Numbered from the stretch's first letter, positions 432 through 62,775 are shown. The stretch: 64,000 nt of DNA from Deltaproteobacteria bacterium (GCA_015492245.1 WGFM01000021.1:1-64000); one strand, 5' to 3'. Translations and numbers: made by a program. The notes: a model not told the origin generated them from the sequence alone.

Positions 432-830
432 TTACTGATAGGTTATCGCACCATCGAAGGTTATTACAGCCTCGTTGTTGTCCTGAGCGGCTGTATTGAG
501 CGGTGTGCTGTAGAGTACTATGTTGCCAGCACTCAGGGTCATGGTGGTCTTTTTGACCTCTACATTGGTCGACTTCCTGTAACCGTTGTTCGTGAGTGTG
601 GTCAGAGAATCGACTGTGCCTGTTGGATTGTCTGACAGATATGCCTGGGCTGCTGTAAAGGCGTTCTTTGCATCAGATGAGAGCTCGCCCCTCCATGCCC
701 TGTAACGATACTTCTGGAACTGGGGTATGGCTATCGCTGCAAGTATGGCGATGATTGCCACCACTATGAGCAGCTCAACCAGTGTGAAACCCCGTTCATC
801 CTTCTTTTTGCCAATCTTCTGGAGTATCAT
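432..830 (-). CDS. pilA: Type IV pilin (major pilin candidate)
   Basis: A 132-residue prepilin. The short basic leader ends in ERG and is followed by FTLVELLIVVAIIAILAAIA, the class III signal/N-terminal helix. The prepilin peptidase PilD would cut after Gly14 and N-methylate Phe15, and Glu5 of the mature protein is present. The mature protein is about 118 residues with no cysteines, so it lacks the C-terminal disulfide loop of Pseudomonas pilins. The first half (F24, Y27, W32, SSD at 37-39) resembles the short Geobacter pilin, followed by an extra domain of about 60 residues. A strong SD (GGAGG) precedes the ATG. A sigma-54 promoter lies at 893-908 and a strong terminator at 383-422. The pilS/pilR genes nearby are the expected regulators. 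Confidence 0.93.
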   Translation of the reverse strand: MILQKIGKKKDERGFTLVELLIVVAIIAILAAIAIPQFQKYRYRAWRGELSSDAKNAFTAAQAYLSDNPTGTVDSLTTLTNNGYRKSTNVEVKKTTMTLSAGNIVLYSTPLNTAAQDNNEAVITFDGAITYQ

Positions 831-26975: not shown

Positions 26976-28274
26976 ATGAAGAGGACTTTTCTACAACTTC
27001 TGTGTTTAACCGCTGTATTCGTGCTGGCGATTGCTGTCGCGCCTTCGTTCGCGGTTCACAAGAACTATGGTGATCTTGCCTGCGGCAGCTGTCATACCAT
27101 GCACAACAGCCAGGGTGGAACCACCGCAAGTCCTGACAACCTGGGTGGTGCAACCGGTGGAAGCATAGTGCTTCTGAGGGGTAATGTTGGAAGCCGCGCA
27201 GATATACAGAACCTGTGTCTGCAGTGCCACGCAGACAACGGTGCACAGGCTGATGCCACCTTCGGGACAGACCTCCATCCGGCACCCAAGGTCTACTTCG
27301 ATGGTAAGGCTGGAGCCGGAACAGACACTAACACTGCAGACGGTATCAACCTGAGCCTTCTCGGTGCAGGTGGAGACTTCTCTGCAGAGATTTCAGGTGA
27401 TTCCGCAACAGGATGGACACCAACTGGAGCAGGTGCAAACTATGCACTCGGTTATGGCCACTCGGTTGGCTTCGGCGACACGGTTCTTAACGGCAAGAAT
27501 CCCCCTGGTGGTGATGCCGCGTTTGGTCCAGGCTCCTATTTTACCTGTACAAGCTGTCATGACCCCCATGGAACAGACGCAACAGGTGGTATGGATGCAA
27601 ACAACATAAACGCCTACAGGAACCTGAAGGGTATACCTGCAGGCAGTGGTGCGACAACTGCAGTTGGGCTTTCCACCTACACAACAAGCTATGTGGGTAT
27701 GGCAGGTGGCACCACCTGGAGTGGTGATGGCACGGCACAGAACCACATCTGGCCCGTGTACAGGTCAACGGCTGCATTCGATGAGACAGATGTATGTACC
27801 GATGGTGGAACGGTCAACTGCTACGGTGTGACGGCAGCAGGCAACAACAATGCAACAGACGGCATGTCCAACTGGTGTGCCCAGTGCCATGACAACTGGC
27901 ACGAGGACATAGCCACAGGAAATGTGAGCGGAGACGACTGGAAACGCCACCCTGTGGACAATGTGCTCATAGACTCTACACCAGACTCCGGTGGTGGTGT
28001 GGACATAGTGAGGCTCGACAACTATGTGGTGAGCACCATTGGGGACCTGTCCCTGCCACTTGCAAAGTCAAGCGATGCGAGCAAAGCCATAGCATACCGC
28101 ACCACAGGCGATGATGGTGCATCGAGGGTGTTCTGTCTGAGCTGCCACTTTGCACATGGTGGTCCGTTCTACGATGCACTGAGGTGGGACTACCTCTCGG
28201 CAGTGGGTGCAGGCTCACAGAATGCAAACTCCGTACCTTCGAATGTGGGTTGCCAGCTCTGCCACAACAGGTAA
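26976..28274 (+). CDS. OmcS-like secreted hexaheme cytochrome c (copy A)
   Basis: A 432-residue precursor with a signal peptide cut after SFA (about residue 26). It has six CXXCH sites: CGSCHTMHN (36-40), CLQCH (81-85), CTSCHDPHG (191-195), CAQCH (301-305), CLSCHFAHG (387-391) and CQLCHNR (426-430, at the very end). The order, the neighbouring TMHN, DPHG, RHP (324-326) and AHG tags and the total length match Geobacter OmcS, whose subunits polymerise into extracellular heme filaments. It is otherwise rich in Gly, Ser, Thr and Asn. A CX7C pair (274/282) may form a disulfide. The SD is GGGAGG. A filament-forming role is inferred from this resemblance. Confidence 0.9.
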   Translation: MKRTFLQLLCLTAVFVLAIAVAPSFAVHKNYGDLACGSCHTMHNSQGGTTASPDNLGGATGGSIVLLRGNVGSRADIQNLCLQCHADNGAQADATFGTDLHPAPKVYFDGKAGAGTDTNTADGINLSLLGAGGDFSAEISGDSATGWTPTGAGANYALGYGHSVGFGDTVLNGKNPPGGDAAFGPGSYFTCTSCHDPHGTDATGGMDANNINAYRNLKGIPAGSGATTAVGLSTYTTSYVGMAGGTTWSGDGTAQNHIWPVYRSTAAFDETDVCTDGGTVNCYGVTAAGNNNATDGMSNWCAQCHDNWHEDIATGNVSGDDWKRHPVDNVLIDSTPDSGGGVDIVRLDNYVVSTIGDLSLPLAKSSDASKAIAYRTTGDDGASRVFCLSCHFAHGGPFYDALRWDYLSAVGAGSQNANSVPSNVGCQLCHNR

Positions 28275-28298
28275 TCCTGTGATGCCTTGAATACAGAG

Positions 28299-28329
28299 GG
28301 GAGGGGATGAACATCCCCTCCCTTTTTTT
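28299..28329 (+). terminator. Terminator after hexaheme cytochrome A
   Basis: A near-perfect stem GGGAGGGGATG/CATCCCCTCCC (28299-28309 with 28312-28322), followed by seven T. It separates the cytochrome from the genes downstream, so those are expressed at a lower level or from another promoter. Confidence 0.85.
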
Positions 28330-28399
28330 GTTTCTATCGTCCAGAGGTTTTTATTACAATACACAGACAGAGATAAAACGGTCCAGAGGGTCGGGTGCC

Positions 28400-29764
28400 A
28401 TGAACATGGGACTTGTTACAACGATAGTGGCTGTTGTTGCCATGCTCTTTCTTTCCGGCGGTGTGGCCCAGTGTCAGGAAGACTACAGGGGACCACTCAA
28501 GGTAAGGCTCAAATACCTTGGTGGTTTCGATGCAAAGCTGAGCGGAGCCCCCCTTGGCTGGGTAGACCAGATGGTGATAGACGAGGAGAACGAGGAGCTC
28601 TACCTTTTGGACAGGAGCAGGAAGAGGATAGTGGTTACCACCAAGGATGGAATATACCTGTATCATTTCAGATACACACTTGCAGGGGTTGGGCAGGTGT
28701 GCTGTTTCTCTCTGGATACTCGAAGTGGCGACATATACATTGCAGAACCCGGAAGGATAGTGGTGCTCAACTACAGGGGTGAATACAAGAAAGAAGTGCC
28801 TCTGGATGACATACCCGAAAGAGAGGTGCTCGAGATACAATCCATACATGTGGCTGATGACGGGAATATATACATAGGAGACTCCAGGAGAGGACGCATA
28901 GTGGCACTCGATTCCGCAGGGAAGGTGGTAAGGATACTGGACAGGAAGACGACCATGGCGAGTAACTTCAAGGGATTGACCGTGAAGGGAGATGAGGTCG
29001 TTTTTCTCGATTCGGGAAGGGCAAGGGTGCACAGACTAACCATGGATGGCAGGGTGCACAGGATATTCGGCCGTCTTTCGAGCCTTCTTGGCGGGTTCAG
29101 CCTGCCAGTCACCCTCAGGGTGGACTGGGACAGAAGAAGGATAATAGTGGTGGATACCAACAGGATGATGGTCATAGCCTTCGATATGAACGGAAACCCA
29201 CTCTACGAGTTCGGTGGCCCCAGGGTGTTCCGCTGGCCAAGGTCTCTTGCGGTATCACGGGAGGGTAATATCTATGTCGCCGACATGAGCGGGGTGATAC
29301 GGATGTTCGAGGTCGTAGAGGTGAAAGAAGAGTCTCCACCACCTGAACCGGCCAGGGTCACGCCACCTCCAGAGCCAGAGGCCGAAAAGAAGAAGGAACC
29401 AACCCTCGAGGATGTGGAAGAGATGGTGAAGGAAGAAGAAAGGCTTCTGCCTGTCTACTTTGCATTCGACAGCGCCGAGCTGACTCCCCATATGAAGAGC
29501 ATACTCGACAGGGATGCGGAATACCTCGGGAAGAACCCTGCTTCAAGGATAAAGATACGGGGCTATACGGACGAGATAGGCTCGGAGGAATACAACCTGA
29601 GGCTTTCGGAGAAGAGGGCAAAGGCCGTATACGACTATCTCGTGGAAAAGGGGATAGAGCCCGAAAGACTCGAGATAGTGCCCATGGGAGTGGTAAGAAC
29701 AGAAGAGAAGACAGAAGAGGCCATGGCAAGGGCAAGAAGGGTGGACTTCCTCGTGGTGAAGTGA
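28400..29764 (+). CDS. NHL beta-propeller protein with C-terminal OmpA peptidoglycan-binding domain
   Basis: About 454 residues. A signal peptide (about 1-23) is followed by six NHL-type repeats (about 45-325; e.g. VDQMVIDEENEELYLLDRS, SLAVSREGNIYVADMSG) that should form a beta-propeller. A Pro/Glu-rich linker leads to an OmpA-C domain (about 350-454) with the peptidoglycan contacts GYTDEIGSEEYNLRLSEKRA. An in-frame ATG at 28307 lies inside the terminator stem and is rejected. A propeller fixed to the cell wall next to a filament cytochrome could anchor or guide it; that is inference. Confidence 0.85.
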   Translation: MNMGLVTTIVAVVAMLFLSGGVAQCQEDYRGPLKVRLKYLGGFDAKLSGAPLGWVDQMVIDEENEELYLLDRSRKRIVVTTKDGIYLYHFRYTLAGVGQVCCFSLDTRSGDIYIAEPGRIVVLNYRGEYKKEVPLDDIPEREVLEIQSIHVADDGNIYIGDSRRGRIVALDSAGKVVRILDRKTTMASNFKGLTVKGDEVVFLDSGRARVHRLTMDGRVHRIFGRLSSLLGGFSLPVTLRVDWDRRRIIVVDTNRMMVIAFDMNGNPLYEFGGPRVFRWPRSLAVSREGNIYVADMSGVIRMFEVVEVKEESPPPEPARVTPPPEPEAEKKKEPTLEDVEEMVKEEERLLPVYFAFDSAELTPHMKSILDRDAEYLGKNPASRIKIRGYTDEIGSEEYNLRLSEKRAKAVYDYLVEKGIEPERLEIVPMGVVRTEEKTEEAMARARRVDFLVVK

Positions 29765-29797
29765 GTGCAAGATGGCTCTTAAAATATACACAGACCA

Positions 29798-30652
29798 ATG
29801 ACCCTGCGAGGCCATAACCTTTCGACCACAGAGGTTGTGCTATTCCTGTCGTTGATACTGGTTCTGTCTGCTGCTACCCTTATGAGAAACAGCCTGTGGA
29901 AGGATGGTATCACCCTATGGAAGGAGACCATCAGAAAGTCTCCTTCGAAGGCACGCCCCTACAACAATCTTGCCATGGAATACTACAGAAATGGACATGT
30001 AGATGAAGCGATAGACAACTACCTGAAGGCCCTGTCCCTTGCCGATCTTTCGCAGATACACGCAAACCTCGGGATGGCCTATCTCGAAAAGGGGTTTGTG
30101 GACATGGCAGTTGAGGAGGAGAAGAAGGCCATAGCGCAGAATCCTTACTATGCCCCTGCATACTCGAACCTCGGTATAGCCTACAGTATGAAGGGTATGC
30201 ATCAGGAGGCGATAGAGTCGTTCAAGAAGGCACTTGCCTTGAGCCCCCGTCCCTTCACACGGCACAACCTTGCCAGGGCGCTGAGAAGGGCTGGAAGGTT
30301 TGAAGAGGCAATGAAGGAGGTCGACGCCCTGCTGAGGGTTTCGGAAACAGCAGAGTTGAGAAACGAGCGCGGGCTTACACTCATGGCGATGGGCAGGCTC
30401 GATGCCTCGCTTGAAGAGTTCGAGAGGGCGAAGAGACTGAACCCCCTCTATGTGCCACCATATCTGAACACAGGACTTGTATACATGAAAATGGGCATGC
30501 TCGGGGAGGCAGAAAGAGAATACGAGCAGGCATCGAGAATAGAACCCGATTATCCACTGCTCCATAAACATCTTGAGATACTCTACAACAGACTGGGCAG
30601 ACCAGGGGCTGCAGAAAAGGAAAGAAAGAGGTTTGAAGAGCTCTCGAAATAA
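29798..30652 (+). CDS. Membrane-anchored TPR protein (A)
   Basis: A 284-residue protein with one N-terminal membrane helix (about 12-29), then LWKDGITLWKETIRKSPSKA RPYNNLA and about six TPR repeats (e.g. AYSNLGIAYSMKGMHQEAIE). The W.D...LWK..i.KSP.kaRp.NNL junction is typical of large membrane proteins with C-terminal TPRs (TMTC-like), yet here only one helix precedes it, so it looks like a cut-down version. Likely a periplasm- or cytoplasm-facing scaffold of the cytochrome locus. No clear SD. Confidence 0.82.
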   Translation: MTLRGHNLSTTEVVLFLSLILVLSAATLMRNSLWKDGITLWKETIRKSPSKARPYNNLAMEYYRNGHVDEAIDNYLKALSLADLSQIHANLGMAYLEKGFVDMAVEEEKKAIAQNPYYAPAYSNLGIAYSMKGMHQEAIESFKKALALSPRPFTRHNLARALRRAGRFEEAMKEVDALLRVSETAELRNERGLTLMAMGRLDASLEEFERAKRLNPLYVPPYLNTGLVYMKMGMLGEAEREYEQASRIEPDYPLLHKHLEILYNRLGRPGAAEKERKRFEELSK

Positions 30653-30710
30653 AGGTCCGACTGCCGAATGGCAGGTGATTGATGACAAGTAAGAGATATG
30701 CTGGTAGAAG

Positions 30711-30975
30711 ATGGCACCACTCAAGCCGAGTGGATATGTGGACGCTGGTTTCATCTACCATGAAAAGAAGGAGTTCAACAAGGCCATGTATGTGTTCACG
30801 AAGGCGCTCTCTCTCAACCCATATCACAGCAGTGCCCACTATGGGCTCGCACTGGTGCTGGAGGAACTCGAAAGATACACACACTGGCAGGAATAGCTGA
30901 GGACATCAGTGCCTGATTCACCTGTACAGAAGGGATGTCATAAGACATCTTGAGAGGCTTATAGATGAAAGACAA
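30711..30975 (+). pseudogene. Remnant of a TPR gene
   Basis: A short frame (30711-30896) contains one clear TPR unit, GFIYHEKKEFNKAMYVFTKA followed by HYGLALVLEELERY, then stops. After a frame change, the stretch to about 30975 encodes DVIRHLERLIDERQRKR, a typical TPR C-terminal helix. The two parts together look like the end of a TPR protein broken by an indel. It lies between two intact TPR genes of the same style, so it is probably a decayed third copy. Confidence 0.55.
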
Positions 30976-31618
30976 CGGAAGAGAGGCTTCTGGCAGGCTG
31001 GAGATAGCCCTGTTTGCAGTGATTATCTTCATCATGGGCACCCTTTCCTACAGCCGTAACATGAGCTGGCAGGACGGTGTTACACTCTGGAAGGATACTT
31101 TCGGGAAGTCTCCTGGCAAGGTGAGGCCTGCAAACAACCTTGCAAGGGGGTTGCTTGAGAGGGACAGGTGCCAGGAGGCGATAGTATTCCTCAAGATGGC
31201 CATAGAGAAAGACCCCTACTATGCAGAACCACATTACAACCTGGGGGTGTGTTATACAAACTATGGAAGATACGATGAGGCACTCGAAGAGTTCAGGGAG
31301 GTGGTGCGCATAATGGGGGTGCTCCTTAAGGGCCACTATGGAGAGATACCCCGCCTGACTCTCCTTGTGGCAAGCCACGGTTACATGGCAAACATATATG
31401 CAACAAGGGGTGAGTACGAAAGGGCGATAGAACACTTTCGCAGGGCAATGGAGTATGCCCCTTCAAGTGCTGCCCTGCACTACAACCTCGCCCTTACACT
31501 GAAGAGGGCAGGCAGACTCGATGAGGCCATCGAAGAGTTCAAGAAGGTGCTCGAAATCAAACCAGACGATGAGGCGGCAAGATGGAACCTTATGATGCTG
31601 GAAGGGGCAGGAAGATAG
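30965..31618 (+). CDS. Membrane-anchored TPR protein (B)
   Basis: A 217-residue protein with one membrane helix (about 12-29), then the same junction as copy A (SWQDGVTLWKDTFGKSPGKV) and about four TPRs (e.g. HYNLALTLKRAGRLDEAIEE). It is paralogous to the TPR gene at 29798. Its start overlaps the TPR remnant and its end overlaps the start of the next NHL gene by 37 bp, suggesting coupled translation. Confidence 0.82.
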   Translation: MKDNGREASGRLEIALFAVIIFIMGTLSYSRNMSWQDGVTLWKDTFGKSPGKVRPANNLARGLLERDRCQEAIVFLKMAIEKDPYYAEPHYNLGVCYTNYGRYDEALEEFREVVRIMGVLLKGHYGEIPRLTLLVASHGYMANIYATRGEYERAIEHFRRAMEYAPSSAALHYNLALTLKRAGRLDEAIEEFKKVLEIKPDDEAARWNLMMLEGAGR

Positions 31619-32490
31619 CCCTTGTCATGGTGTGTTGCCTTGTGGCACTCATTGGCTACAGCGAGGCATCGAGGCTTGCACCCAAATTCAAGTTTGCCAT
31701 AGGGGGCTATTACAACGACAGGTTTCAGAACCCCTCTGCCATATTCATCGACAGGAAGGAAGAGGAGCTCTATGTGGCAGACAACGCAAGAGGAGAGATC
31801 ATGATATTCACCCTCGAGGGTGCCCCGGTCTACCGCTTTGGCAAAAGAAAGGGTATCAGCGCACCAAAGGATGTGGCTGTAAGAGATGGCAACATATATG
31901 TGGTGGAAGAGGGAAGCCCCAATATCTTTGTGTATAACTACAGGGGTGAGCTTGTAAAGAGGCTTGAACCCCCAGGAGATGAGGACTTCATGCCAGGCAC
32001 ACTGGATATGGATGAGAGGGGCTACCTCTACATAACAGATATTCTCAATGGCGGCTGTATAGTGCTCGATAGAGAAGACAGGCCTGCAGGAAGGATAGCC
32101 AGGGGGCTCAAGCCCGTCTCCTCTGTGGCCGTGGGCAGAAAAATAGTATATTTCATCACACCCTTCCACAGAGGCAAAGTCATACATCTTTATACAAGAG
32201 AGGGTAAGCATCTGAGGAGCTTCGAGGCCATAGAGGGCAGGGGCGGAAACCTGGGGCTGCCTGTGGCAGGAAGGGTGGATGAAGAGGAGAATCTGTGGCT
32301 TGTGGATTCCCTCAGGGGGGTTATGGTATACACCCCCGAGGGCAAGAGGATAATGGAGTTCGGGGGTTCACCACCTTTGAGGGAACTGCTTGAATTTCCT
32401 ATAGATATTGACTTTTTTGGCAATAATGTGGTATATATATTAGAAAAGGGAAAAAAGAGGATTGGTGTGTTCAGACTGATGACCTTTTAG
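31582..32490 (+). CDS. Secreted NHL beta-propeller protein
   Basis: A 302-residue protein with a signal-like N-terminus (RGRKIALVMVCCLVALIGYS) followed by NHL repeats (PSAIFIDRKEEELYVADNAR; PKDVAVRDGNIYVVEEG; DIDFFGNNVVYILEKGKKR). It resembles the propeller part of the NHL-OmpA protein upstream but lacks the OmpA domain. The 31582 ATG gives a proper basic n-region and has GAGGCGG upstream; an ATG at 31627 would avoid the overlap with the TPR gene but loses the basic residues. Directly followed by the second hexaheme cytochrome. Confidence 0.8.
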   Translation: MEPYDAGRGRKIALVMVCCLVALIGYSEASRLAPKFKFAIGGYYNDRFQNPSAIFIDRKEEELYVADNARGEIMIFTLEGAPVYRFGKRKGISAPKDVAVRDGNIYVVEEGSPNIFVYNYRGELVKRLEPPGDEDFMPGTLDMDERGYLYITDILNGGCIVLDREDRPAGRIARGLKPVSSVAVGRKIVYFITPFHRGKVIHLYTREGKHLRSFEAIEGRGGNLGLPVAGRVDEEENLWLVDSLRGVMVYTPEGKRIMEFGGSPPLRELLEFPIDIDFFGNNVVYILEKGKKRIGVFRLMTF

Positions 32491-32511
32491 GTTCGAAGGG
32501 ATTGGCGGAAG

Positions 32512-33726
32512 GTGAGAAAGCATAGAGAGAGAAAATCCTTGGACGGGAGCCGTTCTTTCAGAATATCCTGTATTCTTCTCTCCCTTCTTTTTATCCTTCT
32601 GACCATCCAATCGGGCAAAGCCGGCCTTTATCATGCATCGGGCGATGAGACCATAACAGGTGAAGAGACCCTTGCCTGCAGCCAGTGCCATACCATGCAT
32701 GGCACCCAGGGAGGCCAGTCTCTCATATATGGTGGAACGGCAGCGGTGTATCCCAAGCTTCTCAGGGCCTCGAGCATATTGAACCTCTGTCTTTACTGTC
32801 ATCAGGACAACTCGGTTGGCATGACCAACCCAACCCCACCTGATATATGGAACAACACCCTTGGTTACATACCCTCTGGAGGGGACTTCGCACATCTCAA
32901 CTACACCAACGAGTCCAACCGCCACAGTGTCGGCACCGATGTGTCCATCATTACACCACCGGGGTCAGACACCACTGTGGACTGGACAGCCGTAACCACA
33001 AGGTATGGTATCATCTTCAATTGTCTCTATTGCCATGACCAGCACGGAAACAGAAACTACAGAAACCTGAGATATGATCCTGGAAACCCGACAAACGACA
33101 CAGAAGCAGCAGGGGTCAAGGTAAGCTACAGTCTGGACGGAGGAGTATGCTCAACAGGGGAGCTTGCCCCCTGTGACATAGACAACACCACCGATGTAAA
33201 CGACAGTCTTTTCAAGTACAACAGGAACAGCGTGAAGTTCTACAAGCCCGGGGCTACAGACTACAACAGGCTTGCCCAGTGGTGTGGTAGATGCCATGCG
33301 AACTTCTTCGGCCAGAGCGGTGATACCAACCTTGGAGGCACCCCGGCAGTGGGCGTGGGCGCAGGGGACGACAATACAGGTTCCCCATGGGTAAGGCATC
33401 CTGTGGGAGACATAAACATGACCATTGCAGGAGGCAACCTCCATGTAGATACAGCCACCTGGCTTGATACAGCCATGACAGGCAGACCCCGCTATGTGGA
33501 GCCAGACAGCTACGGCACAGAGACCATAGATGGTAACGAGCAGCCCTTCTGCCTGAGCTGCCATTATGCCCATGGTGGTGGAAATCCAAACAACGCCACA
33601 GACCCCACACTGGATCACTCCAACCTCGTCTATGTAGACGCAGGAGGTAACCTCAACATGGATACCACTTATGACACAGCAACAGGCATGCTCAGAAATA
33701 CCTGCCAGAAATGCCACAACCAATAA
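32512..33726 (+). CDS. OmcS-like secreted hexaheme cytochrome c (copy B)
   Basis: A 404-residue precursor with a GTG start and a signal peptide to about residue 37. It has six CXXCH sites: CSQCHTMHG (56-60), CLYCH (93-97), CLYCHDQHG (171-175), CGRCH (258-262), CLSCHYAHG (347-351) and CQKCHNQ (398-402, at the C-terminus). The order and tags (TMH, D.HG, RHP at 295-297, AHG) are the same as copy A and OmcS. A CX7C pair (213/221) sits between hemes 3 and 4, as in copy A. It lies 21 bp after the NHL gene, in one transcript with it and the next TPR gene. Confidence 0.9.
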   Translation: MRKHRERKSLDGSRSFRISCILLSLLFILLTIQSGKAGLYHASGDETITGEETLACSQCHTMHGTQGGQSLIYGGTAAVYPKLLRASSILNLCLYCHQDNSVGMTNPTPPDIWNNTLGYIPSGGDFAHLNYTNESNRHSVGTDVSIITPPGSDTTVDWTAVTTRYGIIFNCLYCHDQHGNRNYRNLRYDPGNPTNDTEAAGVKVSYSLDGGVCSTGELAPCDIDNTTDVNDSLFKYNRNSVKFYKPGATDYNRLAQWCGRCHANFFGQSGDTNLGGTPAVGVGAGDDNTGSPWVRHPVGDINMTIAGGNLHVDTATWLDTAMTGRPRYVEPDSYGTETIDGNEQPFCLSCHYAHGGGNPNNATDPTLDHSNLVYVDAGGNLNMDTTYDTATGMLRNTCQKCHNQ

Positions 33727-33748: not shown

Positions 33749-34525
33749 ATGAAGAAGGTTATCCTTGCAACACTGCTGGCCTCTTTCATGGCCATGTTCG
33801 TTATAGCTGTGTGGCACTTCATGCCGCAGAAAGAGTCTACACCAGAGATCATACGATATGCCACCCTGGATGAACTGAGAACGAAGGTGGAAGAACTCAA
33901 CAAGAGGTTCCAAAGAGGTGAGCAGAACTGGCAACTTGCATACAAACTTGGTGTTGGCTACCTCCACCTTGGGCGCCCAGAGGACGCCATACCCCTGCTC
34001 GAGACTGGTATCAACCTGAACCCCGAATTCTACAAGATGTATGAGACCCTGGGTATGGCATACTATAGACTGGATAGACTCGATGACGCCATGGAAGTGT
34101 GGCAGAAGGCCATGATGCTCTCACCACAGGCAGCCCACCTCAAGGACATGGTAAGCCGCGTAAAGTTCAGGGTGGAGACAAGAAGACGCATAAAGGAGAT
34201 GGAAAAACTGCCTGAAGACAAGAAGAACTGGCTCAAGAGATACGAGCTCGCCACCCTGTATATGGTGGTTAAAGAATACGACAATGCAAGAAGGGAGATG
34301 GAGAAGGCCATAGAGGAAAGACCCGACAGTGCAGACCTCTATGATACCCTTGCAAATATTTATGCACTGAAGGGAGACTTCGATAAGGCCGTGGAAAACC
34401 AGGAGAAGGCATACAACCTGCGTCCAGATGATGAGATGATGAAAAAGAGGCTCGAGGAGATGAAACGCATAAAAGATGCTCTCGAGAAAGGAGAATATCA
34501 CAAAACACCACCCGATAACCCTTGA
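33749..34525 (+). CDS. Membrane-anchored TPR protein (C)
   Basis: A 258-residue protein with one N-terminal membrane helix (about 3-23) and TPR repeats over about 60-240 (YLHLGRPEDAIPLLETGINL; TLANIYALKGDFDKAVENQE), with a basic/acidic helical middle. It resembles NrfG/CcmH-like TPR proteins that assist c-type cytochrome maturation, but that link is only by context. It is 22 bp downstream of cytochrome B. Its stop codon is inside the -35 box of the next promoter. Confidence 0.8.
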   Translation: MKKVILATLLASFMAMFVIAVWHFMPQKESTPEIIRYATLDELRTKVEELNKRFQRGEQNWQLAYKLGVGYLHLGRPEDAIPLLETGINLNPEFYKMYETLGMAYYRLDRLDDAMEVWQKAMMLSPQAAHLKDMVSRVKFRVETRRRIKEMEKLPEDKKNWLKRYELATLYMVVKEYDNARREMEKAIEERPDSADLYDTLANIYALKGDFDKAVENQEKAYNLRPDDEMMKKRLEEMKRIKDALEKGEYHKTPPDNP

Positions 34526-34671: not shown

Positions 34672-35667
34672 ATGGTGGGAACGAGACAGTATTGTGTGTC
34701 TGTTGTGGTGGTTCTGCTCGCCGGACTTCTCCATGGGTGTTCCCAGCCTATGGATGCAGGGGACTGGAAGAGGTTGGAGCCTCTTGTCGGGGCGCGTAGC
34801 GGGTTCTCTGCAATAGTCAGGGGAAACAAGATATATGTGATAGGTGGTATCGGAGAGGCCGGCTACCTTAAAGGGTGCGAGTGGACCACCATCAACCCCA
34901 ACGGCACCATAGAGGAGTGGAGACAGGCGAGTCCACTAAATACAGAACGGGTGCATGCAGGGGTGGCGGCATTCAACAGATATGTATATGTCATAGGTGG
35001 GGCAGGGGGAAGAAAGGGTAGACCCCTCCATACGGTGGAGAGGGCACGGATAAATCCTGATGGAAGCCTCGATGGGTGGGTTATGGAAGAGAGCAGGCTT
35101 ACCACCCCAAGGTTCGGGGCAGCAACGATAGTGTCAGGTGGCTATATATACGCAATCGGCGGATACGCAGAAAGACCCCTCCGCACCATAGAGAGGGCAC
35201 GAATAAATCCTGACGGAAGCCTTGGCAGGTGGCAGCTTGTGGGAGAACTTCCACACCCATCCTATATGCACGCAACAATTGTGGTAAGAGACCATATATA
35301 CCTTGTAGGAGGTAGAACACCTGAAGGAGCATCAAGGGATGTGTTCGTTGCAGAGCTGGAAAGGGATGGCACAATCAAAAGCTGGCACAGGGTGCAACCA
35401 CTTAACACGCCAAGATACGGAGCATCTGCGATAGTTCTGGAAGACAGGATATATGTGGGTGGAGGACACGGGAGTGAAGACGTATATACCATAGAGGCTG
35501 CCTCTGTTACGGATGATGCCTCTCTTTCAGAATGGAAAAAGGTGCTCGAGCTTCCCCTTAAGGCAGGAGGAGCCACCATGGTAGCCTACAGGGATGTAAT
35601 ATACATCATAGGCGGAGTGTACAACAACGAATACATCAGTGATGTATACAAAACAAGGATGGAATAA
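34672..35667 (+). CDS. Kelch-repeat-like lipoprotein
   Basis: A 331-residue protein. The signal peptide ends in a lipobox (LLHGCS, Cys23), so it is probably lipid-anchored. It contains about six kelch-like blades, each with NKIYVIGGIG / RYVYVIGGAG / GYIYAIGGYA-type strands and INPDGSLGRW-like turns. A beta-propeller on the outer membrane surface or in the periplasm is likely. AGGAGG lies about 10 bp before the ATG. It follows the cytochrome locus and has its own attenuator-like leader; a part in the same surface structure is possible. Confidence 0.85.
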   Translation: MVGTRQYCVSVVVVLLAGLLHGCSQPMDAGDWKRLEPLVGARSGFSAIVRGNKIYVIGGIGEAGYLKGCEWTTINPNGTIEEWRQASPLNTERVHAGVAAFNRYVYVIGGAGGRKGRPLHTVERARINPDGSLDGWVMEESRLTTPRFGAATIVSGGYIYAIGGYAERPLRTIERARINPDGSLGRWQLVGELPHPSYMHATIVVRDHIYLVGGRTPEGASRDVFVAELERDGTIKSWHRVQPLNTPRYGASAIVLEDRIYVGGGHGSEDVYTIEAASVTDDASLSEWKKVLELPLKAGGATMVAYRDVIYIIGGVYNNEYISDVYKTRME

Positions 35668-56213: not shown

Positions 56214-59200
56214 ATGGCTACTTCATGGATACAGGATATAGTTAACCCTGTCAAACGCGGTTGGGAGGAGTTTTACCGCAACCGCTGGCAGTACGATAAG
56301 ACCGTAAGAAGCACCCATGGCAACAACTGCACGGGTGGGTGCAGCTGGTGGGTGTATGTGAAGGACGGGCTTGTAACATGGGAGCTCCAGGCAACAGATT
56401 ATCCTCTGCTCGATGAGAGCATACCACCTTACGAGCCCAGGGGTTGTCAGAGGGGTATATCCTCCTCATGGTATGTATACAGCCCTGTGAGGGTAAAATA
56501 TCCCTACATAAGAAGCACTCTTCTCGAGTACTGGAGAGAGGCAAGGAAGAAATACAGTGATCCCGTCCAGGCATGGGCAAGCATAGTAGAAGACCCCGAG
56601 AAGAGCAAGAAGGTCAAATGGTCAAGAGGAAAGGGTGGTTTCCGCAGGCACATCTGGGATGAGGTGTGCGAGATTATAGCAGCAGCCCAGATATATACCA
56701 TAAAGAATTATGGACCTGATCGTAACATAAGCTTCTCACCCATACCAGCCATGAGCCAGGTAAGTTATGCGGCTGGCGCAAGGTATCACCAGCTCATAGG
56801 CGGTGTGAGCATGAGTTTCTACGATTATTACACAGACCTTCCTCCATCATCCCCTGAGATATGGGGTGAGCAGACAGATGTTGCCGAGAGTGCAGACTGG
56901 TACAACGCAGGCTATGTCGTGGTGCTCGGTGCAACCCCCAACAGGACAAGGACCGCAGACTGCCATTTTATGTCAGAGTTAAGGTATGGTGGAGCGAAGG
57001 TGGTGGTGATGTCGCCAGACTATGCAGAGGTTACGAAGTATGCAGACCTGTGGCTGCCTGTTAAGACCGGCTCTGACGGTGCGTTCTGGATGAGTGTTAT
57101 CCATGTGATACTCAAAGAGTTCTATGTGGACAGACAGGTTCCATACTTCGTCCAGTACGTGAAGAACTATACGGACATGCCCCATCTGGTGAAGCTTCAG
57201 AAAGGTGAAGACGGCTGGGAGATGGGCAGGTATCTCAGGGCATGTGATCTTGCAGACTACCAGGATGATGACAACCCCGAGTGGAAGTTTGCAATGTGGG
57301 ATACCAGGAGCCAGAGGCCAAGGATTGTCTATGGAGGTATTGGCTACAGGTATCCGCAGAAAAAGGAGAACGAGGGCAAGTGGAATACCCTCATGAAAGA
57401 CGGCAAGACAGGTGAAGATATAGACCCGGCACTGTCTCTGCTCGATATGAAGGATGATGTGCTGGAGCTCAACACCTATGAGCTCGATACCGGCGAGGTC
57501 TACAAGAGGCAGGTTCCTGTAAAGTATGTTGAGACAGTTACAGAGGGCAGGGTGGCTGTAACCACCGTGTTTGATCTCCATATGGCACAGTTTGGTGTTG
57601 CAAGAGATGGCCTCAGTGGAGACTATGCAACAGGCTACGATGATGACAAGGGGTTCACACCCGCATGGCAGGAGAAATACACCGGTATAGGCAGAGACAC
57701 TGTCATACAGGTTGCAAGGGAGTTTGCCTCCAACGCAGAGGTTACAAGGGGTAGAAGCATGGTCATAGTTGGAGCCAGTATCAACCACTGGTACCATGCG
57801 GACCTTATCTATCGTGCCTTCACAGATGCCCTCATGCTCTGCGGATGTGTTGGCAGAAACGGTGGAGGCATGAATCACTATGTTGGGCAGGAAAGGCTTG
57901 CTCCGTTCGATGCATGGGGACAGGTGGCCTTTGCGCTGGACTGGGCAAGACCTCCACGCCAGCAGAACACACCAAGCTACTGGTACATATACACAGAGCA
58001 GTGGAAGTATGACTCTGCAATAACCGATTATCACAAGGTGCCTGACCCTGAAAAGCTGGATTACAAGCACACTGCAGACTACAATGTGAGGGCCGTAAGG
58101 ATGGGGCATCTGCCCTGGTATCCACAGTTCAACCAGAACAGCATCGCCCTTGCGGAAGAGGCACAGAAGAACGGGGCAAAGACAGATGCAGAGATAATAG
58201 ACTATGTGGTCAAAAAACTCAAGGATGGCTCACTCAGGTTCTCCGTAGAAGACCCCGATGCCCCGGAGAACTGGCCAAGGGTGTGGATGATATGGAGGGG
58301 CAATGCCCTGGGCTCGAGCGCAAGGGGACAGGAGTTCTTCTTCAAGTTCCTCCTTGGAACCCACCACAATGTGGGCGCAGAGGAGGCCGCAAAGCCCTAT
58401 GTCGAGGAGATAACCTACAGGGAAAGCCCCATAGGCAAGCTTGATCTGCTTGTGAGCATAGAGATGAGGATGAACACAACCCCTGTATATTGCGACATAG
58501 TGCTCCCTGCTGCACACTGGTACGAGAAGGAGGACATAAACACAACAGACCTCCATTCCTATATACTTCCCATGGGTGCTGCGGTGCCACCAAACTGGGA
58601 GGCAAAGAGCGACTGGGATGCATACAAGTTCCTTGCAAAGAAGTTCAGTGAGATAGCAAAGAACCATTTCTCAGGACCTGTGAAGGATGTGTTGGCGGCA
58701 CCACTGCAGCATGATACCCCGGCCGAGATAACACAGCCCGCCCTTGATGGCATAAAGGACTGGAAAAGGGGTGAATGTGATCCCATACCTGGCATAACCA
58801 TGCCGAATATGGTTGTGGCCCAAAGGGATTATCCCAATATCTACAACCGCTACATCTCACTGGGACCCCTTATGAAGAGTAAGTACGGCTTCCACGGTAT
58901 TATGACCGATGGTGGGCCAGTATACGAAGAATACATGAACAAGGAGCACACCAATGTGCTCGAATGGGGTGGCCAGAAGTATATCTCACTTAAAGAGGCC
59001 AAGGAAGTGGCCAATGTGATACTGTTCTTCTCGAGCCTCACCAACGGAGAGGTGAACTACAAACAGTGGAAGATAGAGGAGCACCATACAGGCCTCTACG
59101 GGGACAACTACCGGGAGGCAAAGAAGGCTGTGAAGGCCATCTACGGAGACGAGGTGAAGGAATACGAGGAGTACAATGGTGTGGCAGATGAAGTGGGGCT

Positions 59201-59942
59201 TCCAACCAGAGAGGTAAGGATGACCTACGATGACATAGCTGCCCAGCCCCGAAGGTGGCTCACCAGCCCGATGTGGAGTGGTGATACCCGTAGTGGCAGG
59301 GCCTACACAGGTTTTACCCTGCAGATAGACTACAGGCTGCCATGGAGAACCCTTACAGGCAGGCAGCACTTCTATCTGGACCACCCGACCTTCCTGGAGT
59401 TCGGTGAGGGTGTGGTAACCCACAAGTACAAGCTGGACCCCAGAAAGATGAACGAGATAGAGAAGAGCGACAAGACCGATGCCATAGTGTGTAACTACAT
59501 TACACCACATGGCAAGTGGCAGATCCATTCAACCCATTACGACAACCTGAGGATGCTCACACTCTCCAGGGGTGGTAACACCATATGGCTGAACGACAGG
59601 GATGCCGAAAGTGTGGGCATAAAGGACAACGACTGGGTGGAGGCCTACAACGACAACGGTATCTTCGTCTGCAGAGCCATAGTGAGCGCCAGAATACCCC
59701 AGGGTGTTGCCTTTGCATACCATTCGATGGAGAGAACCATAAACATACCCAAGTCCGAGCAGCGCAACAAGATAAGGGGTGGATTCCACAATAGCCTTAC
59801 AAGACAGCGTCTCAAACCAACCCTCATGTGTGGTGGATATGGACAGTTCTCCTACGGGTTCAATTCGTGGGGGCCAATTCCAATAATCAGGGATACAACC
59901 ATACTTGTAAGGAAAATGAGAAACCAGGAGGTGAAGTGGTAA
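56214..59942 (+). CDS. narG: Nitrate reductase / nitrite oxidoreductase alpha subunit (molybdopterin)
   Basis: A 1242-residue molybdopterin bis-MGD enzyme of the NarG/NxrA class. The FS0 cluster ligands are H35, C39, C43 (HGNNCTGGC) and C78 (EPRGCQRG). The conserved NYGPDR..SFSPIPAMSQVSYA, the Mo-coordinating Asp region YYTDLPP (D208) and IWGEQTDVAESADWYN follow. The protein starts MATSWIQDIVNPVKRGWEEF and has neither a Tat twin-Arg motif nor the vestigial NarG leader. Narrow similarity to Nitrospira NxrA at the N-terminus (RWEEFYRNRWQ-like) is from memory. It reduces nitrate or oxidises nitrite; direction cannot be read from sequence. Confidence 0.92.
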   Translation: MATSWIQDIVNPVKRGWEEFYRNRWQYDKTVRSTHGNNCTGGCSWWVYVKDGLVTWELQATDYPLLDESIPPYEPRGCQRGISSSWYVYSPVRVKYPYIRSTLLEYWREARKKYSDPVQAWASIVEDPEKSKKVKWSRGKGGFRRHIWDEVCEIIAAAQIYTIKNYGPDRNISFSPIPAMSQVSYAAGARYHQLIGGVSMSFYDYYTDLPPSSPEIWGEQTDVAESADWYNAGYVVVLGATPNRTRTADCHFMSELRYGGAKVVVMSPDYAEVTKYADLWLPVKTGSDGAFWMSVIHVILKEFYVDRQVPYFVQYVKNYTDMPHLVKLQKGEDGWEMGRYLRACDLADYQDDDNPEWKFAMWDTRSQRPRIVYGGIGYRYPQKKENEGKWNTLMKDGKTGEDIDPALSLLDMKDDVLELNTYELDTGEVYKRQVPVKYVETVTEGRVAVTTVFDLHMAQFGVARDGLSGDYATGYDDDKGFTPAWQEKYTGIGRDTVIQVAREFASNAEVTRGRSMVIVGASINHWYHADLIYRAFTDALMLCGCVGRNGGGMNHYVGQERLAPFDAWGQVAFALDWARPPRQQNTPSYWYIYTEQWKYDSAITDYHKVPDPEKLDYKHTADYNVRAVRMGHLPWYPQFNQNSIALAEEAQKNGAKTDAEIIDYVVKKLKDGSLRFSVEDPDAPENWPRVWMIWRGNALGSSARGQEFFFKFLLGTHHNVGAEEAAKPYVEEITYRESPIGKLDLLVSIEMRMNTTPVYCDIVLPAAHWYEKEDINTTDLHSYILPMGAAVPPNWEAKSDWDAYKFLAKKFSEIAKNHFSGPVKDVLAAPLQHDTPAEITQPALDGIKDWKRGECDPIPGITMPNMVVAQRDYPNIYNRYISLGPLMKSKYGFHGIMTDGGPVYEEYMNKEHTNVLEWGGQKYISLKEAKEVANVILFFSSLTNGEVNYKQWKIEEHHTGLYGDNYREAKKAVKAIYGDEVKEYEEYNGVADEVGLPTREVRMTYDDIAAQPRRWLTSPMWSGDTRSGRAYTGFTLQIDYRLPWRTLTGRQHFYLDHPTFLEFGEGVVTHKYKLDPRKMNEIEKSDKTDAIVCNYITPHGKWQIHSTHYDNLRMLTLSRGGNTIWLNDRDAESVGIKDNDWVEAYNDNGIFVCRAIVSARIPQGVAFAYHSMERTINIPKSEQRNKIRGGFHNSLTRQRLKPTLMCGGYGQFSYGFNSWGPIPIIRDTTILVRKMRNQEVKW

Positions 59943-61465
59943 TGGATATAAGAATACAGCTTTCAATGTGTTTCCATCTTGACAAGTGTATAGGGTGTCA
60001 TACATGTAGTGTGTCCTGCAAGAATGTGTGGACAACCCGCCAGGGTGCTGAATACATGTGGTGGAACAATGTTGAGACAAAGCCGGGTGCAGGGTATCCA
60101 CTTACATGGGAGGACCAGCAGCGCTACATGGGTGGCTGGGAGGTAACTGCCACAGGGGCGCTCAGGCTCAAGCTCCTTAAGGGTCCTGGAAAACTCAGGA
60201 CCCTTGCCAATATATTCTTCCAGCCCAATCTTCCAACGATAGATGACTACTACGAGCCATTTACCTTCGACTATGACAACCTTTTCAATGCTCCACTTGG
60301 GGATGACCAGCCCGTGGCGAGGCCAAAGAGCCTTATAACAGGTGAGTTCATGGACAAGGTTGCCCTGGGGCCAAACTGGGATGACGACTTCGGAGGCTCA
60401 CCACTTTACGCTGCAAATGATCCGAACCTCAAGGGCCTCAGTGAATCACAGAAGCAGATGCTCACACACTTCCACAGGCTCTTTTACTTCTACTTCCCCA
60501 GAATATGTAACCACTGTCTGAACCCTGCCTGTGTCGCATCCTGTCCATCAGGTGCAATATACAAGAGGGGTGAGGACGGCATAGTCCTTATAGATCAGGA
60601 TACCTGCAGGGCATGGCGTTTCTGTGTGAGTGCATGCCCCTACAAGAAACCATACTACAACTGGAACACAGGTAAGAGCGAGAAATGCATATTCTGTTAC
60701 CCCAGGCTCGAGGTTGGTGAGGTCAATGCATGCGCCCATGCCTGTACCGGAAGGATAAGGTTCGTGGGCGTGCTCTTCTATGACGCCGACAAGATAGAAG
60801 ATGTGGCAAAACAGCCCGATGACAGGGTCGTTGAGGCCATGCGCGAGATAGTGCTTGACCCCGAAGACCCCAAGGTTGTTGAGGCCGCTACAAAGAGTGG
60901 GGTTGAGGAGAACTGGATATGGGCTGCACAGAACTCTCCTGCCTACAAGCTCTTCAAGAAGTGGCGAATAGCTCTACCACATCACCCTGAGTTCAGAACC
61001 GTGCCCATGAACTTCTATCTGCCACCACTCTCTCCCATACTCCACCAGGCAAAGGGTGACGAGGGTGGCACATATGACCCTGAGAGCATGGAGTTCTTCA
61101 ACGATGTGGAACTGATGAGGATACCGGTGAAATATCTTGCAAACCTCCTTTCGGCAGGCAATGAGGAGCTGGTGATGGAGTCCCTCAAGAAGCAGATGGC
61201 AGTGAGGATGTATATAAGACAGCTCCGTGTCGGTGATGTGGGAGATGCAAAGGTGAAGAGTGCACTCGATGAGGTGGGTCTCACAGCCGAGGATGCATGG
61301 GAGATCTACAAGCTCGTATCCATTGCCACATTCACCGAGAGGTTTGTAATACCGAAGACACACCGTGAGATAAAGACAACCATAGATCCAAGAACCATGT
61401 ATGAGAAGAGAGGTTCCGTAGGGTTCGGTAGAAAAAGAAAAGAACTGGTAGCAAGAGAGTGGTAA
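59942..61465 (+). CDS. narH: Nitrate reductase / nitrite oxidoreductase beta subunit (Fe-S)
   Basis: About 507 residues with four Fe-S clusters. The first is C16-C19-C22-C26 (CIGCHTCSVSC). The second region is CNHCLNPACVASCPSG. The third is CRAWRFCVSACPY, with Trp in the position that makes the NarH [3Fe-4S] cluster, and the last includes CIFCYPR and CAHACTGR. It moves electrons between the alpha subunit and the membrane or cytochrome c subunit. The ATG overlaps the narG stop (TAATG). Confidence 0.95.
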   Translation: MDIRIQLSMCFHLDKCIGCHTCSVSCKNVWTTRQGAEYMWWNNVETKPGAGYPLTWEDQQRYMGGWEVTATGALRLKLLKGPGKLRTLANIFFQPNLPTIDDYYEPFTFDYDNLFNAPLGDDQPVARPKSLITGEFMDKVALGPNWDDDFGGSPLYAANDPNLKGLSESQKQMLTHFHRLFYFYFPRICNHCLNPACVASCPSGAIYKRGEDGIVLIDQDTCRAWRFCVSACPYKKPYYNWNTGKSEKCIFCYPRLEVGEVNACAHACTGRIRFVGVLFYDADKIEDVAKQPDDRVVEAMREIVLDPEDPKVVEAATKSGVEENWIWAAQNSPAYKLFKKWRIALPHHPEFRTVPMNFYLPPLSPILHQAKGDEGGTYDPESMEFFNDVELMRIPVKYLANLLSAGNEELVMESLKKQMAVRMYIRQLRVGDVGDAKVKSALDEVGLTAEDAWEIYKLVSIATFTERFVIPKTHREIKTTIDPRTMYEKRGSVGFGRKRKELVAREW

Positions 61466-62049
61466 TGGCAACGGCAGAGAGAAAGGGCCTGTATTATACA
61501 TTTGCACGGATGGTAGAGTATCCCTGGGAGGATATAGGGGGGATGGTGGATGAGTGCATAGAGATGCTCATGCACCATCCCGAGTATCCTCCGGAGGTAA
61601 GAGAGGAAATCGAAAAATTCAAGAAAGAGACCGAAGGCATGGCACTCGATGAGCTGCAGGAGCTCTATTCCTATACATTTGAGTTCTCATCTGACTACAC
61701 CATCGACATGGGTTACCACCTCTACGATGGGTTCAAGAGGGCGAACCACCTTCTCAAGATAAAGCAGATATACAGGGAATACGAGTTCCCATACGAAGAG
61801 GTGGCAAGGGGGGAGTTGCCCGATAATCTGGTGGTGGTGCTCAAGTTTATAGATGGTCTCAGTGATATGGAGGTGGAAAGGGATATAAAGGAGAATTTTC
61901 TCATCAAGGCCCTTGAGAAACTCAACAAGAACTTCGAGCTTACCAACAGCGATTGTCCCTACAGACACATCATAAAGGCTCTTCTCATGGTCATCGACAA
62001 GGATATAAAGATGACAGGGGAGATGGAAAAAGAAGGCCATAAAGCATAA
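61465..62049 (+). CDS. narJ: Nitrate reductase assembly chaperone
   Basis: About 194 residues of the NarJ/TorD all-helical family: YYTFARMVEYPWEDIGGMVD at the start and LYSYTFEFSSDYTIDMGYHL in the middle. It keeps the alpha subunit ready for cofactor insertion. The ATG overlaps the narH stop (TAATG); a GTG six bases upstream is less likely. Confidence 0.9.
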   Translation: MATAERKGLYYTFARMVEYPWEDIGGMVDECIEMLMHHPEYPPEVREEIEKFKKETEGMALDELQELYSYTFEFSSDYTIDMGYHLYDGFKRANHLLKIKQIYREYEFPYEEVARGELPDNLVVVLKFIDGLSDMEVERDIKENFLIKALEKLNKNFELTNSDCPYRHIIKALLMVIDKDIKMTGEMEKEGHKA

Positions 62050-62067
62050 ATTAAAGGAGGGTAAGAT

Positions 62068-62775
62068 ATGAACTGGGATTTCATGTTATTCGGCACATTG
62101 CCGTATGTGTTCATAACCATAGCGATAGTGGGTACCATATACAGGTACATGGTGAACAGATTCTCCTGGTCGAGTCTTTCCTCGCAGTTCCTCGAGAACA
62201 AGGTGCTGTTTTTTGGCTCCTTTCCGTGGCATTTTGGTATAATACTGGTGCTGCTTGGACACATAATAGCCATACTAATACCTGGCACCTTTCTTGCCTG
62301 GAATGCCGTGCCGGTAAGACTCTATCTACTTGAACTGAGTGGCCTCATACTTGGACTCCTGGCTCTCATAGGGCTGCTTATGTTCATATACAGAAGGCTT
62401 ACAGACAGCAGGGTAAGGGCTGTAACCAGCTCATGGGATGTGTTGATACTTATAATACTTGCGATACAGGTGCTTACAGGGCTTGGCAACGCCCTTCTTT
62501 ACAGGTGGGGTAGCAACTGGTATGCTTCATCTGCAGTACCCTGGATATGGTCAGTCATTACACTCAATCCTCAGGTTGAGTACATAGCATCCCTGCCACT
62601 TCTTGCAAAGATTCACATCTTTAACGCCCTTATATTTATACTGCTCATACCTTTCTCAAGGCTTGTGCACTTCCTGGCATTCATAGGGCCGCTGAAGTAT
62701 CTCACAAGGTCTTACCAGCTTGTCAGGTGGTATACGAGGGCACCAAGGACAGAGGCTATTCGCCAGTATAAATAA
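62068..62775 (+). CDS. narI: Nitrate reductase gamma subunit (cytochrome b)
   Basis: A 235-residue protein with five membrane helices. Heme-ligand histidines occur in FPWHFGIILVLLGHIIAI and near the end (KIHIFNALIF, RLVHFLAF), the NarI di-heme b pattern. It exchanges electrons with the quinone pool. AGGAGGG SD. It is the last gene of the operon and is followed by a strong terminator. Confidence 0.93.
   Translation: MNWDFMLFGTLPYVFITIAIVGTIYRYMVNRFSWSSLSSQFLENKVLFFGSFPWHFGIILVLLGHIIAILIPGTFLAWNAVPVRLYLLELSGLILGLLALIGLLMFIYRRLTDSRVRAVTSSWDVLILIILAIQVLTGLGNALLYRWGSNWYASSAVPWIWSVITLNPQVEYIASLPLLAKIHIFNALIFILLIPFSRLVHFLAFIGPLKYLTRSYQLVRWYTRAPRTEAIRQYK

Follow-up and report, generated by a model that had tools for sequence, protein, structure and literature searches.

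Two genes for hexaheme c-type cytochromes, here named cytA and cytB, were analyzed in a 64,000-nucleotide stretch of DNA from Deltaproteobacteria bacterium (GCA_015492245.1, WGFM01000021.1:1-64000; hereafter the window). Both proteins belong to the superfamily of OmcS, and we suggest, with a probability of roughly 45%, that the locus encodes an OmcS-superfamily extracellular wire, with CytA as the candidate subunit, and a dedicated partner, CytB, which would act as an end or junction subunit. The proposal is built on the histidine patterns of the two proteins, particularly around heme 5, and on their phylogeny, copy number, and gene neighborhoods.

Two hexaheme cytochromes of the OmcS superfamily

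Both open reading frames (ORFs) are present on the plus strand, with cytA (26976..28274) encoding a 432-amino-acid protein (P0001) from an ATG start and cytB (32512..33726) a 404-amino-acid protein (P0002) from a GTG start. As described in an earlier, sequence-only reading of the window, each protein contains six CXXCH motifs, in the order CHTMH, CH, CHDxHG, CH...RHP, CH.AHG, and a C-terminal CH, with P0001 ending in CQLCHNR and P0002 in CQKCHNQ. This order was said to be that of OmcS; it is indeed common to CytA and CytB, but OmcS has RAHAS, not AHG, after the fifth motif. A Sec signal is plausible in both proteins, ending, as judged by eye, between SFA and VHK in CytA and between SGKA and GLYH in CytB, and residues 1-26 of CytA are predicted to form a signal peptide.

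When the PDB was searched with phmmer, OmcS (6ef8/6nef) was the sole match to either protein (E 2.6e-5 for CytA and 3.8e-5 for CytB). A profile built from 25 proteins of the OmcS clade scored 83.6 bits against CytA and 34.1 bits against CytB, compared to maxima of 14.0 and 13.8 bits, respectively, in 200 shuffled controls in which the CXXCH motifs were fixed and the linkers shuffled. Because the scores lie far above those of motif-preserving shuffles, the homology to OmcS goes beyond the heme motifs. CytA and CytB share 27% identity, and CytA-type proteins share about 24-28% identity with OmcS. In NCBIfam and Pfam, no specific nanowire family scored above its curated cut-off, the generic paired-CXXCH (doubled-CXXCH) domain being the only hit, and a search of viral contigs with P0001 returned no matches.

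The relationships within the superfamily were examined in a tree of 133 proteins (quick IQ-TREE run, with support from the Shimodaira-Hasegawa-like approximate likelihood ratio test, SH-aLRT). An OmcS side of 63 proteins, from Geobacteraceae, Nitrospirota, Krumholzibacteria, and others, split off at a support of 100, and the other side of the tree comprises a five-heme Desulfobacterota family together with CytA and CytB. The CytA clade has a support of 81, or 99 without its Elusimicrobia member, and the CytB clade a support of 98 with two distant members included; the two are distinct sister clades, with a joint support of 95. Neither CytA nor CytB is therefore an OmcS ortholog, as they form separate clades outside the OmcS clade. 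The earlier description of the two proteins as OmcS-like thus stands with regard to superfamily membership, as indicated by the profile, the PDB match, and the histidines described below, but not with regard to orthology.

Two further groups in the superfamily were observed. CytA paralogs with a seventh CXXCH, in a loop inserted after heme 3, form their own subclade (L091:6531-7886, on G000:C30; L082:499-1848; and L089:6204-7532) and are possibly wires with a side heme; the paralog in L089 is encoded in the same cluster as the 26-heme and 15-heme conduit proteins discussed later. A five-heme OmcS-like family from Thermodesulfobacteriota forms a clade of its own, and its genes lie directly downstream of 26-heme, 16-heme, and NHL genes (L145, L147, L149, L151, L155, L157-L161, L164-L166, and L170).

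Conserved histidines and the heme-5 signature of CytB

In OmcS, the hemes have 12 axial ligands, one of which, on heme 5, is donated by a neighboring molecule (PMC6584659; PMC7096707). The same number of histidines, 12, was found to be invariant in a comparison of 95 sequences from four subfamilies (21 CytB and 74 others), consisting of the histidines of the six CXXCH motifs and those at OmcS positions H2, H16, H110, H147, H257, and H335. The sole exception is the first of these extra positions (H2) in CytB, which is conserved at 95%, with one N-terminally truncated sequence lacking it. All 12 are retained in the CytA and CytB of the window, including the equivalent of OmcS H16, the histidine that we take to be the donor to the heme 5 of the neighboring subunit. 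This equivalent is His43 in CytA (codon at 27102..27104, plus strand), a position invariant in 95/95 superfamily sequences, and His63 in CytB (32698..32700, plus strand), invariant in all CytB sequences.

By contrast, CytB differs from the remainder of the superfamily on both sides of heme motif 5. All 21 CytB sequences, including those from other phyla, carry a histidine in the stretch that links heme motifs 4 and 5 (His311 in P0002; codon at 33442..33444, plus strand), compared to 1/74 of the other sequences as counted by motif. After motif 5, the pattern HS[NMG][LM] is present in 18/21 CytB sequences and 0/74 others, and corresponds in the window to the HSNL-like histidine His369 (33616..33618, plus strand), whereas an Arg-aromatic pair that follows motif 5 in 74/74 OmcS-side and CytA proteins is found in 0/21 CytB sequences. 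One set of sequences served both for spotting the signature and for counting it, the outside check being three further CytB sequences (L208, L212, and L045), in which the extra histidines are also present. The differences flank heme 5, which in OmcS is the one heme with a sixth ligand coming from across the subunit boundary.

Copy number and distribution

Copy number was determined in 59 genomes, namely that of the window and those of relatives. Strong cytA matches were found in 19 of them, with 1 to 7 matches per genome, and the window's genome has two further full-length copies, both on contig C30. Strong cytB matches were found in 18 genomes, with a single full-length copy in each. Both genes are present in 17 of the 20 genomes that have either, and neither is present in the other 39. 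A wider search of the class added two genomes, one that has a complete cytB and another that has a cytB fragment, but revealed no second full-length cytB in any genome. Outside the class, cytB is clearly present in Nitrospinota and Elusimicrobia, and more distant forms occur in Poribacteria and Abyssobacteria. In two loci (L117 and L120), the partner of cytB is an OmcS-side protein, with no cytA in its place.

Gene neighborhood of cytA and cytB

The two cytochrome genes belong to a block of genes that are all on the plus strand, which begins with cytA. The cytA partner gene (28307..29764) encodes an NHL beta-propeller with a C-terminal OmpA peptidoglycan-binding domain (Pfam NHL, 7.1e-13; OmpA, 4e-21); its real start may lie further inside the ORF, and its product is possibly an envelope anchor. 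It is followed by TPR1 (29798..30652) and TPR2 (30965..31618), both encoding membrane-anchored proteins with Pfam TPR matches, and by the cytB partner gene NHL2 (31582..32490), which encodes another NHL beta-propeller (Pfam NHL, 8.3e-7). The next gene is cytB, and the block then continues with TPR3 (33749..34525), a third gene for a membrane-anchored TPR protein (Pfam TPR). Thus, the locus as originally delimited, at 26976-33726, includes the two cytochrome genes, but the block is longer, reaching the end of TPR3 (34525) and perhaps that of a kelch-repeat gene (34672..35667, plus strand; Pfam kelch). The latter, whose product has a lipoprotein-like signal (LHGC), is loosely associated with the locus and is followed by an aspartyl-tRNA synthetase-like ORF, identified by eye.

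The sequence-only reading had suggested searching for the same neighborhood in other genomes, and this search showed a conserved clustering of the cytochrome genes with NHL propeller genes. Relatives from the same class share, with some variation, the order cytA, NHL, (TPR), NHL2, cytB, TPR3. In particular, NHL2 immediately precedes cytB in the window. The same holds for all 14 relative loci whose contigs permit the comparison, including L086 and L090, which have no cytA close by, and for loci from other phyla (L117, L120, L150, and L152). An NHL gene likewise adjoins cytA in relatives, with the OmpA domain being optional (3/8 relatives tested). The best explanation is that the NHL+OmpA protein and NHL2 are matched partners of CytA and CytB, respectively. 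The TPR genes differ in number among relatives, although TPR2 has homologs in several of them and TPR3 follows cytB in most. The kelch gene was considered as a member of the conserved block and rejected, as a homolog near the cluster was found only in L087. Of the NHL, TPR, and kelch proteins, all of which had been proposed as dedicated assembly or anchoring factors, it is therefore the NHL proteins that are consistently linked to the cytochromes.

A probable conduit and assembly cluster elsewhere in the genome

No assembly genes of the osc type, i.e., for a peptidyl-prolyl isomerase (PPIase) chaperone, channel-like proteins, or a propeller of that kind, were found beside the candidate wire gene in the window locus. 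However, another contig of the same genome, C12, encodes a 26-heme and a 15-heme protein, a SurA-like PPIase, LpoB-like lipoproteins, a YncE-like propeller, and further proteins, and homologs of these genes accompany true omcS in loci of Geobacteraceae and Nitrospirota. The SurA-like PPIase, the LpoB-like lipoproteins, and the YncE-like propeller are likely to be dedicated assembly genes. The protein taken here for SurA-like was at first considered a porin (a "barrel"); no porin was identified in the C12 cluster.

In three relatives (G007, G002, and G036), the cytA/cytB cluster adjoins a multiheme conduit cluster that encodes a 15-heme protein and, where the contig stretch shows it, the 26-heme protein. 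Of the 19 genomes that have a strong cytA match, 16 also matched the 26-heme protein at E < 1e-150, and the remaining three (G006, G047, and G053) are all less than 90% complete. One genome of the window's genus (G001) has the 26-heme protein at 79% identity but no cytA or cytB was found in it; as this genome is 92% complete and in 200 contigs, loss and an assembly gap are indistinguishable. Cytochromes with 42 CXXCH motifs that resemble the 26-heme protein are encoded near OmcS-like genes in L107, L108, L110, and L115, the last being a Gemmatimonadales record.

A model for the locus and its alternatives

In the model that we favor, CytA would be exported to the cell surface, folded around six bis-His hemes, and polymerized. 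In the resulting head-to-tail chain, each subunit would use its CHTMH histidine (His43) as a ligand for heme 5 of the subunit before it, which is the role of His16 in OmcS. CytB would join the same chain via its own CHTMH histidine (His63), while presenting a changed heme-5 end, without the Arg-aromatic pair and with His311, usually accompanied by His369. It would thereby most likely complete its own heme 5 and terminate the chain, or else link the chain to a partner other than a further wire subunit, such as the outer-membrane conduit. The export and conduit functions would be supplied by the osc/oet-like cluster elsewhere in the genome. A more specific version, in which CytB is a natural end cap that docks onto the last wire subunit via its CHTMH histidine and fills heme 5 with its own His311 or His369, is conceivable, although we consider it doubtful. 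Since heme 5 in OmcS needs a ligand from the next subunit, a terminal subunit would stay five-coordinate, and the capping of OmcS ends has been named as an open question (PMC7096707). If CytB is such an end cap, a five-coordinate heme would be avoided where a wire ends or is anchored.

Several observations weigh against an end or junction role for CytB, or against a wire at this locus. AlphaFold2, with alignments of 46 and 32 sequences, gave a predicted local distance difference test (pLDDT) score of 38 for CytA and CytB. On the tree, the CytB signature has a single origin, so that its counts do not represent independent events, and His311 could be structural or a ligand of another metal. In genomes with true OmcS, searches for cytB gave weak matches only (E about 1e-9 or worse); true OmcS systems without a clear cytB imply that an end-piece is not a general need. 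A close cytB ortholog in Geobacteraceae was accordingly rejected at the search sensitivity used.

The sequence-only reading had envisaged one or two filament types, and CytA and CytB might each form a homopolymeric wire independently of the other, with the extra histidines of CytB being structural. CytB could still donate a ligand to a neighbor, as it retains all 12 invariant histidines including the one at the H16 position, and each cytochrome has a separate NHL partner gene. However, two independent wires would not lead one to expect a strictly single-copy cytB beside a multicopy cytA with which it strongly co-occurs, nor a heme-5 region in CytB unlike that of every other superfamily member. 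Given these differences, a second filament is not the likeliest role for CytB, and we regard this alternative as rather improbable. The two proteins might instead copolymerize, and CytB would then be either a regular or a minor subunit that tunes a mixed wire; their conserved pairing and common ligand set would allow this. The variable copy number of cytA against one cytB, together with the altered heme-5 end, makes this the least probable of the alternatives in our judgment.

It is also possible that there is no filament, and that CytA and CytB act singly in electron transfer, as extracellular hexaheme cytochromes that are either soluble or bound to the surface, with the H16 position conserved for folding or heme packing. 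Polymerization is here a prediction from sequence, the identity of CytA-type proteins to OmcS is low, and the AlphaFold models gave no support to a filament. On the other hand, the CHTMH histidine, for which an inter-subunit ligand role has been published, is invariant throughout the superfamily sequences compared, heme 5 of a monomeric CytA would miss its sixth ligand, and true OmcS loci have homologs of the C12 companion genes and conduit. We therefore consider the absence of a filament unlikely, and retain the wire with a dedicated end or junction subunit as the preferred model.

Other features of the window

Genes for a respiratory nitrate reductase are present at 56214-62775 (plus strand), where narG (TIGR01580) and narH (TIGR01660) both pass the cut-off and ORFs at the positions of narJ and narI come next. 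The organism may thus respire nitrate, and electron uptake is therefore as possible as electron disposal. A type IV pilin with a prepilin N-terminal domain above cut-off is encoded at 432-830 (minus strand), and the ORFs after it, probably up to 10428, comprise putative pilus machinery and a two-component system, as judged by their starts.

Comparison with known systems

Wires of OmcS, an assembly cluster (osc), and systems in which a large conduit is coupled to OmcS-like cytochromes are already known. Like OmcS of Geobacter sulfurreducens (6EF8/6NEF), CytA and CytB have six hemes, the same motif order, the 12 invariant histidines, and a similar length. They differ in forming separate clades and, in CytB, in the changed heme-5 region; the polymer known from OmcS is putative here. 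Two related hexaheme genes per locus also occur with OmcT and other tandem OmcS paralogs, but such tandem copies (e.g., in L094, L096, and L103) lie inside the OmcS clade, whereas CytA and CytB are deep, separate clades, and OmcS-type proteins retain the Arg-aromatic pair that CytB lacks.

An assembly cluster termed osc (omcS-companion) was reportedly described by Shen et al. in 2025 (Cell Chem Biol; cited in PMC12307469). The YncE-like propeller, SurA-like PPIase, and LpoB-like lipoproteins of C12 resemble that cluster, whereas the companions in the window locus are NHL, TPR, and OmpA-domain proteins. The OetABI conduit, with its OmcS-like, OmcX, and Apc2a cytochromes (Murali et al., 2023; PMC10553843), likewise combines a large multiheme outer-membrane conduit with OmcS-like cytochromes, and the 26-heme and 15-heme proteins of C12 are of the omcS-adjacent kind; in the window's genome, however, cytA and cytB are not linked to the conduit genes.

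The clades of CytA and CytB, the conserved pairing of the two, and the changes around heme 5 that mark CytB are apparently new, as no description of them was found in the searchable literature, to which most subscription journals do not belong. Compared with the known systems, the locus would extend OmcS-type wires to another uncultured lineage and offers a sequence signature for separating wire subunits from their partners in genomes. In CytB, a single-copy protein with heme-5 changes that is found in several phyla, it also provides a named protein and specific residues for the question of how such wires end.

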